From a bacterium (GTDB lineage: Bacteria > Armatimonadota > Zipacnadia > Zipacnadales > Zipacnadaceae), in NCBI GenBank assembly GCA_030603495.1, contig JAUVXR010000004.1, forward strand, positions 62,001 through 126,000: a DNA stretch of 64,000 nt, given 5' to 3'. The notes beneath the pieces are model-generated. The model searched no databases. It saw only the letters and a program-made list of their open reading frames with translations, and had not been told where the DNA came from. Below, one piece after another: positions 5,976-17,046 of the stretch; within the stretch, counting starts at the first letter, position 1, and each line of letters starts with the position of its first letter. The position numbers and the translations under genes were made by a program.

Positions 5976-6509
5976 CTAAGACACTGACTGCAATGCCACT
6001 ATGAAGTACATCCCATAGTGGCCCGAGTCCTTGGTGAACTCGTGCCAGACGAGCCTGTCGTAATGGTAGGGGACGTATCCGTTCTTGGTGACGGTGACGT
6101 CCACTATCCAGTACGAGACGCTGCGCACGAGGATAGTGCTGAAATCTTCCCAGTATCCATTGAAGTTCCAGGTAAAGCTCCCGTCTGGGTCACCACCAAT
6201 GAAGTATATCGTCTTTTGCTCTGCGGTCGAATCCGCGAAGAACTGATAGACCTGCTCATCGTAGTCCAGCACGTCCTCGTGCACTTCGATCGTGACCATG
6301 GCCTCGAGGGGGTTACCATCCCCGTCAGTAACGGCAACGGCCAAAGTCAGATCAACGTCCACCGGCGGGCTCGGTGGCGGGTTGTAATCTAATCCGGACG
6401 AACACCCGCTCGAGCACAACATCACCCCGGTTGCTAGGCTGCTCAGAACCAACGCAAGCCAGATCGTCTTTGTTACTGCGCACCGAGCTTTCTGACTCTT
6501 GCTGCACAT
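5976..6509 (-). CDS. Hypothetical lipoprotein
   Basis: About 177 residues when started at the ATG at 6509, which has GAGGGTGAG just upstream; a longer frame reaches 6629 but adds a non-signal N-terminus. The start region MCSKSQKARCAVTKTIWLAL continues into a hydrophobic segment and ends with LCSSGCSSG, a lipobox-like site. After a Pro-rich linker (NPPPSPPVDVD) comes a beta-rich domain (LTLAVAVTDGDGNPLEAMVT) that looks like a carboxypeptidase-regulatory or Ig-like fold, ending in WHEFTKDSGHYGMYFIV. No catalytic motif was seen. It is transcribed toward the tRNA, in the same direction as the flagellar-type operon, but is separated from it by about 360 bases and a terminator. Function unknown; probably anchored at the cell surface or periplasm. 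Confidence 0.6.
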   Translation of the reverse strand: MCSKSQKARCAVTKTIWLALVLSSLATGVMLCSSGCSSGLDYNPPPSPPVDVDLTLAVAVTDGDGNPLEAMVTIEVHEDVLDYDEQVYQFFADSTAEQKTIYFIGGDPDGSFTWNFNGYWEDFSTILVRSVSYWIVDVTVTKNGYVPYHYDRLVWHEFTKDSGHYGMYFIVALQSVS

Positions 6510-14028: not shown

Positions 14029-15426
14029 CTAGCGGCGGCACTGCCAGACGATGTCGGCGTCGTCACAACTCAATTTCTGTGGGGAGTCAGTAGGCGGCAC
14101 ACTGCCGTCGTCTTCTCGGTACCGGCCGATGCTGCAGAGCCTGAAGCCTCCGCCCGTGCGCTGGTAGATGAAGTCCTTGCCGCTGAAGGGGTCCTGGGGC
14201 AGCTCCCAGTCCAGCGCCTGCTGAAGCTGGTCCAAGGTCTCTGGATAGGCCCCGTGTTCGTACCTGTATGCCTTCAGCGCCAGTACCACGCGGCACAGAC
14301 CGATGTTGGCTGTGGCCATCGCGCGCTTGTGCACTACCCTTGCAAAGACCGGAATGAGGATCTTTGCCAAGACTCCCTGATAGAACGGCAACGCCCTCAA
14401 TTCCTTGTTCGCTGATTCAATCTCCCCAACTGCCCTGGCATAAGGTAAACGCTGGGCTTCAACCACCCGAGACATGTAGTCAATGTAAGTCAGTTCGTCA
14501 AGCTTCCACAGCGGCCAAGCAAGTCGACTGCGATATGTCTGTACAATTGGCAACTCAACGCTACCATATGTACCGCGGCGAATCGCTTCAGTGGTTTCAA
14601 TCCCCAAAGCCCGTTCGCCTATCATGCCATCCGTGAATGCCTTGCGCAGATCAATTCGGGACAGATACTCCTGGAAGTCATTAGCTACGCCCGGCTCCAG
14701 TTGCTGCCCAGAGATGATCCGCTCTAGCGCGTCAAGAGTTATCGCCTGAATCGCGATGGCGACGAGCTGAGCAATGAGCGTCGGCTCAGAGGCAGCGTGC
14801 TCAGATATGCGTAGGGCGACCCGGCACCAGTCGAGCGCTTCGTCGAGGTGGCCGGCCTCGGCTGATACCAAGGCCTGGATTCTGAGCATCTGTGCTGCAC
14901 TGCGGAGGCCTGCGAAATGCGGAAAGAGCGCCCCGGCTCCACCTTCCCAGTTGACAGGAAAGATGCAGTGCGGTCGCTGCGAGGCGCGGCGGATGATCTG
15001 CAGGTCGCGCTTCACTGCCGGACGGCTAAGAATCCTGCGGACCTGCCGCCGCTCCGCGCGGCCTGTCTTGATGTAGGTCGTTATGAAGTGGTGTTCCTCC
15101 TCTGTTATCCCGCCAATATACCGGCGCTCCGGCACAAGTCCGGGAGAGGAGAACTCACCGAATACCTTCTGATAGAGCACTGCGGCGTTCTGGCTAGCAG
15201 GTACTGGTTTTGGTGCCGCTTCCGCCAGTGTCAGCGGCAGGCCCTGCGCCTTGAGCTCGGCCAGCTTGGCCTCCAGTTCCAGGCCCCACTTGATGTTGAA
15301 ATAGGTCCAGGGGATGGCCACCAGCACGAACAGCACCAGCAGCCCGAAGCCTACTCGCGGAGCAACCCGCACACACCAGCGGCCTACTCGTCTGACGGTG
15401 GGAAAGCGTTCCTCATTCATTGTCAT
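14029..15426 (-). CDS. Hypothetical membrane protein with pilin-like C-terminal motif
   Basis: A 465-residue protein with one N-terminal membrane helix (about residues 24-45: VGFGLLVLFVLVAIPWTYFN) and a large, mostly helical extracytoplasmic part. The end (VLALKAYRYEHGAYPETLDQ, then LPQDPFSGKDFIYQRTGGGF) has the pattern seen in secretin-pathway pseudopilins and in a group of Planctomycetes and Armatimonadota proteins that follow sigma factors. I know no function for it. It is the last gene of a three-gene unit with an ECF sigma factor and a small membrane protein, 6 bases after that one. It may be the envelope output or sensor of this sigma circuit. It ends 219 bases from pgi (convergent); that interval holds nothing recognisable. 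Confidence 0.6.
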   Translation of the reverse strand: MTMNEERFPTVRRVGRWCVRVAPRVGFGLLVLFVLVAIPWTYFNIKWGLELEAKLAELKAQGLPLTLAEAAPKPVPASQNAAVLYQKVFGEFSSPGLVPERRYIGGITEEEHHFITTYIKTGRAERRQVRRILSRPAVKRDLQIIRRASQRPHCIFPVNWEGGAGALFPHFAGLRSAAQMLRIQALVSAEAGHLDEALDWCRVALRISEHAASEPTLIAQLVAIAIQAITLDALERIISGQQLEPGVANDFQEYLSRIDLRKAFTDGMIGERALGIETTEAIRRGTYGSVELPIVQTYRSRLAWPLWKLDELTYIDYMSRVVEAQRLPYARAVGEIESANKELRALPFYQGVLAKILIPVFARVVHKRAMATANIGLCRVVLALKAYRYEHGAYPETLDQLQQALDWELPQDPFSGKDFIYQRTGGGFRLCSIGRYREDDGSVPPTDSPQKLSCDDADIVWQCRR

Positions 15427-15432
15427 TCCTCC

Positions 15433-15759
15433 TCACGAATTTCCGTTCTCGCCCAGAATTTCGGACATCAGTTGTTCCATCTCTTCGAGGCTGTCTGCAT
15501 AAGCCGCGCCGGGCATGGGGCGGGCGATGGCGGGGCGGCCGGTGATTTGCGTTATGGGTCGTTCGTGGAGATGATCAAAGACTACGTTGACCAGAATCAG
15601 CAGGCCCGCGGCGGCGGCAAGCGCCCACCGCAGTACCTGCCTGCGGCGCTGAGCGCGTGCTCTGCGCACGGCGCGGTGCAGAAGCCGCTGCTTCACCTCC
15701 GGGTCGGGCATCGCCAGGGGTACCTGGCGCAACTGATTCTCGAACTTTTCATTAGTCAT
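15433..15759 (-). CDS. Small membrane protein, probable anti-sigma factor
   Basis: A 108-residue protein. The first 40 residues are charged (NQLRQVPLAMPDPEVKQRLL, then HRAVRRARAQRRRQ), then a single membrane helix (about 43-60, VLRWALAAAAGLLILVNVV), then about 45 residues outside, ending MEQLMSEILGENGNS. It starts inside the end of the sigma factor gene (8-base overlap, ATGACTAA), which couples their translation. Size, topology and position are those of anti-sigma factors, but there is no HxxxCxxC zinc motif. Its N-terminus would bind the ECF factor. The role is inferred from context only. Confidence 0.55.
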   Translation of the reverse strand: MTNEKFENQLRQVPLAMPDPEVKQRLLHRAVRRARAQRRRQVLRWALAAAAGLLILVNVVFDHLHERPITQITGRPAIARPMPGAAYADSLEEMEQLMSEILGENGNS

Positions 15760-16300
15760 CGTTGCTCTCTCCTAATAGCTCCCGCAGCTTCTCCAGCCCG
15801 TAGCGGTAGCGGCTGGCGGCGGTATTGGGCGAAATGTCCAGAACCTCCCCGATCTGGGCGAAGGTTAGCTCGTGCCAGACCTTCAGGACGACGACTTCCG
15901 CCTGCTCGGCGGGCAGTTGGGATAGCGCGTCGTGGACGGCGAGCGCATCGAGCGTGCGCTCGAGGGGGCTTTCGGCAACCGCGGCCAGAGTGGCCGGATT
16001 GTTGGTATTGTCCCCACGCCGACGCTGGACCCGCGCGGCCTTGTTGCGCGCTATCTTCAGCAGATAGGCCTGCAGGTTCCTGATGCCGGTGACGCGGCGC
16101 CCCCGCTCGATGAGTGCCAGAAAGACCTCGACCAGGATGTCTTCGGCCTGCTCCTTCTCGCCCACCCGCGCCAGCAGCAGATGGTAGACGGGCGCGCGGT
16201 AAGCGTCGTAGATCACCGCCAGCGCCTGCATGTCGCCTGCGGCCAGGGCTTGGAGCAGCTCATAGTCGTCAGGTTGTTTCAGAGCATGAATGGCATTCAC
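15752..16300 (-). CDS. ECF-type RNA polymerase sigma factor
   Basis: About 183 residues from a GTG at 16300. Region 2 is seen as LLQALAAGDMQALAVIYDAY, then LLLARVGEKEQAEDILVEVF and NLQAYLLKIARNKAA. Region 4 is ALSQLPAEQAEVVVLKVWHE, then LTFAQIGEVLDISPNTAASR and YRYGLEKLRELL. The linker has RRRGDNTNN. The longer frame up to 16432 would begin upstream of the promoter at 16333-16361, so the GTG is preferred. It heads an operon with the anti-sigma-like and pilin-motif membrane proteins; it may control that operon itself. The -35 (TAGACA) is not the AAC-type motif typical of ECF autoregulation. Confidence 0.85.
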   Translation of the reverse strand: MNAIHALKQPDDYELLQALAAGDMQALAVIYDAYRAPVYHLLLARVGEKEQAEDILVEVFLALIERGRRVTGIRNLQAYLLKIARNKAARVQRRRGDNTNNPATLAAVAESPLERTLDALAVHDALSQLPAEQAEVVVLKVWHELTFAQIGEVLDISPNTAASRYRYGLEKLRELLGESNDD

Positions 16301-16332
16301 GGTGCACCGCACAATTGCGCTGTCACTAGGTA

Positions 16333-16361
16333 AGTGTAGTTTAGCCCGGCGGATTTGTCTA
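16333..16361 (-). promoter_or_regulatory. Promoter of the ECF sigma operon
   Basis: On the minus strand: TAGACA (16356-16361), 17-base spacer, TACACT (16333-16338), ending about 33 bases before the GTG at 16300. Confidence 0.6.
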
Positions 16362-16740
16362 ATGACGGGGCCGCACCACGGGCATATGACTCCGAATCCG
16401 AGGCGCTGCTCCAGGCCATCAAGGTCGGTCACGGCCTGCGCGCGCAGGCTATCGCTGATGGGGACACCGTTGTGGGCAACGAGCTAATCGCGCTCAACGC
16501 CGGCATGGTCAGGTACTGGCAGTATCCCAGCAGCGCGCCCTGCTGCGCTTCTGGGTCGGACGCAAGTGTGTGGATATGGCTGTCGGGCGCTTTGCGCTGC
16601 CGTAGACTCGCTAACCGCCTGAGATATTCTGCCTCAAAAAAAAGCCGTGAGATGGTGCCAGAAGAAGGAGGAGGCAACCCTTTTGGCGAAGAATAGAATA
16701 ATCATGGCGTGAAAACTGTGAAGGGAAGGAGCTCATTAGT
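16362..16740. other. Intergenic stretch with no convincing gene
   Basis: A plus-strand frame (16355-16696) is open but overlaps the sigma promoter, has no ribosome site and resembles nothing I know. Its end contains AGGAGGAGG at about 16667. The last 30 bases carry AAGGGAAGGAG, the ribosome site of the next gene. Confidence 0.45.
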
Positions 16741-17046
16741 ATGGCTGACGCAGTTCTGATGGTGACCACCAAGGGCTATGGCAAGGTCGTATCGCCTACC
16801 GAGTTCAAGCAGCAGAAGCGCGGAGGGAAGGGAATCATTGGCTTCAAGGTAACCGAGGACAGTGGTCCGGTCGCTGCCACCGCGCATGTTGTACTCGGCG
16901 AGGGAGAGCGAGTACTCGTTACGACTGCTAGGGGCCGGGCGATAATGACCCCGGTGGACGACATCTCCGTACGCAGCCGGACCGCGGGCGGTGTGAAGAT
17001 AATTGATGTGGCCGACGGCGACGGTGTAATCTCGGTCATCATCTAG
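16741..17046 (+). CDS. Stand-alone gyrase A C-terminal-type two-blade protein
   Basis: A 101-residue protein. It matches two blades of the GyrA/ParC C-terminal beta-pinwheel: VLMVTTKGYGKVVSPTEFKQ, then QKRGGKGIIGFK (residues 25-36, a GyrA-box-like QKRGGKG), and RVLVTTARGRAIMTPVDDIS, then RTAGGVKIIDVADGDGVIS. Full GyrA has six such blades after an 500-residue breakage-reunion domain; none of that is upstream here. AAGGGAAGGAG precedes the ATG at 1741x (16741), so it is made as an independent small protein rather than being a random fragment. It could bind and wrap DNA or modulate gyrase. Small GyrA-CTD proteins exist in some lineages, but I cannot name a function. The GyrA box here is QKRGGKG instead of QRRGGKG. 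Confidence 0.8.
   Translation: MADAVLMVTTKGYGKVVSPTEFKQQKRGGKGIIGFKVTEDSGPVAATAHVVLGEGERVLVTTARGRAIMTPVDDISVRSRTAGGVKIIDVADGDGVISVII

Follow-up and report, generated by a model that had tools for sequence, protein, structure and literature searches.

The window, a 64,000-nucleotide stretch of an Armatimonadota genome, encodes a small protein made of two DNA gyrase C-terminal domain (CTD) blades, which stands alone as its own gene and belongs to a genuine gene family. The explanation that we favor, ahead of a gyrase modulator and a protein-binding module and with a probability of roughly 40%, is a self-assembling DNA-binding pinwheel: two-blade chains would assemble, most likely in threes, into a six-blade wheel that would bind and bend DNA without gyrase catalysis and act as a minor nucleoid or regulatory protein, in a role comparable to that of Borrelia Gac. 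The family presents the DNA-wrapping wheel of gyrase separated from the enzyme, as a two-blade unit, and is a natural test of the minimum number of blades for a working pinwheel.

The gene, recognized from its ORF, Pfam matches, orthologs and an AlphaFold2 model, runs on the + strand from an ATG at 16741 to a stop codon that ends at 17046, and its product has 101 residues. A ribosome binding site, GGAAGGAG (16724..16731, +), lies 9 nt 5′ of the ATG and is identical in 6 of 6 aligned loci (the window and five close relatives). Pfam family PF03989 (DNA_gyraseA_C) matches the protein with an E-value of 1e-21 and 76.5 bits, against a gathering cut-off of 27, in two stretches: the first blade at 16747..16860 (+; C24:78747-78860) and the second at 16909..17043 (+; C24:78909-79043). 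The Pfam scan of the protein found no other family above its cut-off, all remaining rows scoring far below theirs; the breakage-reunion domain PF00521 gave no match, so the protein does not qualify as a GyrA subunit, and each chain carries two PF03989 stretches, not six blades. The original prediction of a 101-residue protein with its own ribosome site, two GyrA-like blades and no topoisomerase domain is thus borne out. Against the NCBIfam models of GyrA the protein aligns to the last ~95 positions, scoring far below the whole-GyrA cut-offs. Weak matches to PF01336 (0.061), PF24279 (0.12) and an AlbA model (0.062) were set aside.

AlphaFold2 gives a model with a mean pLDDT of 90.8, and the predicted fold is that of pinwheel blades: 98 residues align with GyrA-CTD residues 740-838 (Z 13.7, rmsd 1.9), and Foldseek gives a TMq of up to 0.86 to GyrA-CTD. 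The model thus resembles blades 5-6 of the GyrA CTD (5ztj, 1zi0), to which a profile match of the sequence has an E-value of 1e-32; unlike the GyrA subunit, the protein is missing the catalytic domain and blades 1-4. Structural matches other than gyrase and ParC had Z values of 3 or less and were set aside.

The protein is homologous to GyrA blades 5 and 6 and has diverged from them. With six blade HMMs built from 34 GyrAs of the phylum (G041, for which the fetched GyrA was incomplete, was left out), the first blade scores a mean of 40.5 bits with blade 5 versus 24.8 with blade 1, and the second a mean of 37.0 bits with blade 6 versus 34.1 with blade 4. The best HMM for the first blade is blade 5 in 22 of 23 orthologs; for the second, 17 score best with blade 6 and the other 6 with blade 4. 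In the window protein these are blade 5 for the first blade and blade 6, then blade 4, for the second. A second HMM set, built from 75 GyrAs among the matches listed, gives means of 57.7 (blade 5) versus 32.4 (blade 1) for the first blade and of 55.3 (blade 6) versus 31.9 (blade 4) for the second.

This assignment changes the meaning of the QKRGGKG box in the original prediction. The string is indeed present, at residues 25-31 (16813..16833, +; it includes R27), and it fits the GyrA-box consensus Q(R/K)RGG(R/K)G, but in the window protein the blade that bears it scores 44.2 bits with blade 5 versus 29.6 with blade 1, and the GyrA-box proper is located on blade 1 (PMC3510516). From the HMM scores and the structural match to residues 740-838, we read QKRGGKG as a blade-5 loop, not as the blade-1 GyrA-box. 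Blade 5 of the G112 GyrA has the identical string, and blade 5 of other GyrAs has RGGKG. A loop of the second blade, RSRTAGGVK, spans residues 78-86 (16972..16998, +) and includes R80. The exact consensus occurs in 5 of 23 aligned orthologs, and one ortholog family has RGGGG or RGGSG instead; this variability counts against the favored pinwheel.

Homology to exactly the last two GyrA blades might also come from a broken-off or decaying gyrA end, a reading that we consider refuted and give almost no weight. PF03989 matches eight times in the host genome (93.5% complete; 2.67 Mb in 62 contigs): twice in the window protein on contig C24 and six times in a single 830-aa frame on contig C5. This GyrA has the topoisomerase domain and carries a box-like loop, QHRGGRG, on blade 1. 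The check originally proposed, whether the host's full GyrA has all six blades, therefore comes out in favor of a separate gene, and the condition named as refuting it, a gyrA missing just these blades, does not apply. The spread of orthologs and purifying selection on them further argue against a remnant: ORFs of similar length occur in 31 of 291 phylum genomes (two, in G004 and G032, are interrupted by contig ends), and pN/pS is 0.13-0.23 (10 pairs among five genomes), which together make this a real family, beyond chance.

The phylum count took in short ORFs that match the window protein at E <= 1e-14. The other 42 matches in the phylum are GyrA-type, 38 of them in frames longer than 800 aa, and we take the four shorter frames (G212, G186, G193 and G224) as cut genes; the G212 frame, of 154 aa and close to the start of its contig, entered the counts as a truncated gyrA. 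A profile search at E 1e-20 recovers 30 of the 31, losing the contig-end fragment of G032. Each genome with the small gene has one copy. The expected conservation in the phylum holds for the class, where searches found short orthologs in 30 of 46 genomes (14 of the 22 with completeness of 90% or more and contamination of 5% or less), and not for the phylum as a whole, the remainder of which has one in 245 genomes. Of the 16 class genomes without the gene, 13 gave GyrA-type matches in a profile search, the exceptions being G002, G020 and G039; these three and G003 are 59-84% complete, and some of the others are nearly complete, from which we conclude that the gene is dispensable. Its absence from so many class genomes weighs against the favored pinwheel. 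Identity to the window protein is 52-84% across the 22 other alignment rows, 49% for G042 and 52% for G052. The last, the sole genome outside the class with the small gene, has a protein whose partner in the tree is the G042 protein (100/93); transfer or contamination is possible, the contamination estimates being 7% for both genomes.

In a tree of 81 rows, 26 small proteins lie on one side of one branch, apart from the class GyrAs, which again speaks against a broken gyrA end, although this single group is weakly supported (bootstrap 85, SH-aLRT 28). With 103 columns, that support, an unsettled bootstrap and L049, a long GyrA row, adjoining the group, the tree does not place the origin of the small protein within GyrA (the G041 GyrA row was left out here as well).

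Our preference for three chains derives from a periodicity in GyrA itself. When blades were compared with hhalign, the mean score within {1,3,5} and {2,4,6} was 47.8 versus 25.4 between these groups for the 75 GyrAs among the matches listed, and 36.7 versus 20.7 for the phylum GyrAs; in both sets the odd/even grouping came out on top of all 10 possible three-three splits. These comparisons suggest, with ten splits only, that the GyrA wheel looks like three odd-even blade pairs, and by its blade assignments the window protein is one such pair in register. Because the unit would be one pair and the wheel three, chains might well assemble into a six-blade wheel. The pair in register suits, but does not prove, a trimer as the candidate assembly that rebuilds the wheel, and the periodicity indirectly favors the three-times-two idea of the original prediction. 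If such a trimer proved true, it would support the gyrase wheel having grown from a two-blade unit.

Two-blade chains that close into rings have precedents among propellers. The strand order of a pinwheel differs from that of a propeller, and the lectin of Ralstonia solanacearum has two blades per chain. That lectin is a trimeric propeller according to an abstract, and in Pizza2, which likewise has about two blades per chain, three chains trimerise into a propeller (PMC7337062), which supports the favored pinwheel by analogy; unlike the window protein, for which a trimer is a proposal, both belong to different propeller families. Against the favored assembly, two-blade fragments of other propellers also make tetramers or pentamers, and two-blade WD40 chains assemble as tetramers instead (PMC6805158).

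The case for DNA binding is mixed. R27 and R80 align with GyrA R766 and R817, respectively (from the structural match, with the equivalence worked out from the numbering), so that each blade has one arginine at a DNA-contact position. The two are described as DNA-contact arginines of the S. Typhi GyrA-CTD, where changing R766 or R817 to alanine weakened DNA binding (K_D of 221 and 204 nM, respectively, versus 122.5 nM; PMC7210945). R80 is invariant among the 23 aligned orthologs, and 22 of them have R27. Eight positions of the span common to both are basic in 80% or more of 34 GyrAs; of these, 15, 27, 80 and 86 remain basic in the small proteins and 16, 40, 69 and 76 do not, and positions 36 and 78 are newly basic. 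Their mean net charge is +0.4 (-5 to +4, 23 orthologs), versus +3.9 (0 to +11, 34 GyrAs) for GyrA blades 5-6. With four conserved basic positions lost and a net charge near zero, both of which count against the favored pinwheel, the DNA wrapping once suggested for this protein seems doubtful. Contacts that are kept on a reduced basic belt could mean weak DNA binding, binding as an oligomer, or another ligand.

The last of these leads to a different reading, in which the pinwheel face has been re-used to bind a protein partner, as the ParC CTD does with MukB, and DNA binding would matter little. Besides the lost basic positions and the near-neutral charge, it would account for a new fixed set of residues in the small proteins (D73, R78, S79, G83 and D94), and the ParC-CTD/MukB complex 4mn4, identified by its entry title, is among the structural matches. 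The continued conservation of R27, R80 and the glycine-rich loop is harder to reconcile with it, as is the lack of a conserved adjacent partner gene, and we consider this reading improbable. A nucleoid role for the favored pinwheel would in any case be exercised beside HU, which both the host and 42 of the 46 class genomes possess; this tells against the pinwheel to some degree and rules out replacement of HU by the small protein. All that the sequence shows with a bearing on such a role is the strong ribosome site and the isolated position of the gene.

The small gene is flanked upstream by a divergent ECF-type sigma gene (frame 15752-16432, -) and downstream by a homocitrate-synthase-like gene that starts 330-390 bases on, followed by an M42 peptidase gene and a GlmS-type gene. 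The sigma and synthase neighbors are common to G013 and G006; in G001 two other predicted frames separate the sigma gene from the small gene, G005 has the same downstream genes, and in G010 the synthase lies upstream. Of the 31 loci, 6 have the synthase cluster, and other ortholog families have different neighbors. Clustering the neighbors of all 31 loci, several of which end soon at contig ends, revealed no conserved operon partner common across families: apart from the small gene's own cluster, the two widest are largely its antisense shadow frames, and the next-widest cover 6-7 loci, some of them also shadow frames. A consensus scan at the small gene found no same-strand promoter and no terminator. 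In 30 of the 31 genomes GyrA matches on a contig other than that of the small gene, and G005 is without a GyrA match; this separation, together with the lack of a common neighbor, suits a gene acting on its own and thereby the favored pinwheel. Two genes of the window (14029-15759, -) follow the ECF sigma gene. The shorter, of 108 aa, has counterparts close to the small gene in G001, G013 and G006; the longer, of 465 aa, has no Pfam match at 1e-5 and recurs there in G013 and G006.

A third reading links the protein to gyrase in trans: the two-blade unit would dock at the rim of the GyrA wheel or replace the changed blade 5 of GyrA, and so tune wrapping, supercoiling or decatenation by the sole type IIA topoisomerase found. 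It is consistent with the single PF00521 gene per genome in 13 of 13 genomes checked, and with GyrA itself, where the blade-1 box loop connects to blade 6 and closes the ring (PMC3510516), which makes it feasible for the loop of an odd blade to close on an even one. It also draws on a comparison of 52 GyrAs (that of G045, unmatched by the pattern, was left out), in which 29 of the 30 genomes that carry the small gene, versus 11 of the 22 that do not, lack the blade-5 RGG loop. That loss, however, may be a single event inherited by the whole group; most gene-less class genomes (e.g. G009, G012, G014, G015, G016 and G025) also lack the loop; G052, at its 7% contamination estimate, has both the small gene and a GyrA blade 5 that keeps RGGKG; and the separate contigs of GyrA and the small gene are no help to this reading either. 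We consider such a modulator unlikely, if less so than the protein-binding module, and reject a strict coupling of the small gene to loop loss, in view of the G052 exception and the confounding by ancestry; a single branch may have seen both the gene gained and the loop lost. Of 12 GyrAs sampled outside the class, 10 keep the loop; of 40 class GyrAs, those of G043 and G044 do, and the other 38 (L039 of G000 is an example) have replacements such as GRNIHG or GRATQG. That the small protein supplies a CTD to topoisomerase IV was rejected, no second PF00521 gene being found in these 13 (incomplete) assemblies. Were gyrase binding true, an enzyme that is usually described as GyrA2GyrB2 and nothing more would have a further subunit acting in trans, in genomes that yielded no topoisomerase IV (13 of 13 checked).

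In a broader scheme, which is speculative and on balance improbable as a whole, the gyrase wheel would be an ancient triplication of an odd-even pair and the small family that pair set free; three copies would close via the box loop into a six-blade DNA-bending wheel, or the pair would insert into the gyrase wheel, where gyrase is the sole type IIA enzyme found.

The closest known system is Gac of Borrelia burgdorferi, described as a stand-alone GyrA CTD that bends and wraps DNA and represses ospC (PMC10127594), and its DNA bending lends support to the favored pinwheel. Like Gac, the window protein is a gyrase CTD without a topoisomerase domain in a cell that also has full GyrA. Unlike the window protein, Gac is the whole CTD of ~35 kDa, made from an internal promoter inside gyrA; ours has no internal start in gyrA but a separate gene on C24, with gyrA on C5, and it consists of two blade-5/6-type blades of near-neutral charge, so that any Gac-like DNA binding would rest on the contact arginines that are kept. 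Word searches of the literature, with few subscription papers, found Gac and no two-blade stand-alone gyrase-CTD protein. A shorter GyrA paralog of Planctomycetes presumably keeps its topoisomerase domain, unlike the window protein, which is blades only. That paralog has 1-3 DNA_gyraseA_C domains, likewise fewer than six blades (PMC8567305).

A mobile origin was considered and set aside: 35 stretches matched a pattern, with no confirmed viral relative; on plasmids, the five matches come from Paracoccus records at 36% identity, one of them carrying a gyrA annotation; and the phage matches are three weak ones in unannotated records. Outside the phylum, 76 of the 80 loci among the matches listed lie in ORFs of at least 400 aa, three more run off a contig start, and the fourth is L061; in a profile search of the 46 genomes behind the 80 loci listed, the ORFs have at least 738 aa, except those of L061 and L106. 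In L061 (archaeon GW2011_AR19, match at 6001-6285), gyrase blades occupy a 268-aa frame that follows a stop and is internal to its contig, the candidate causes being a split gyrA, a CTD gene in its own right and a sequencing error.
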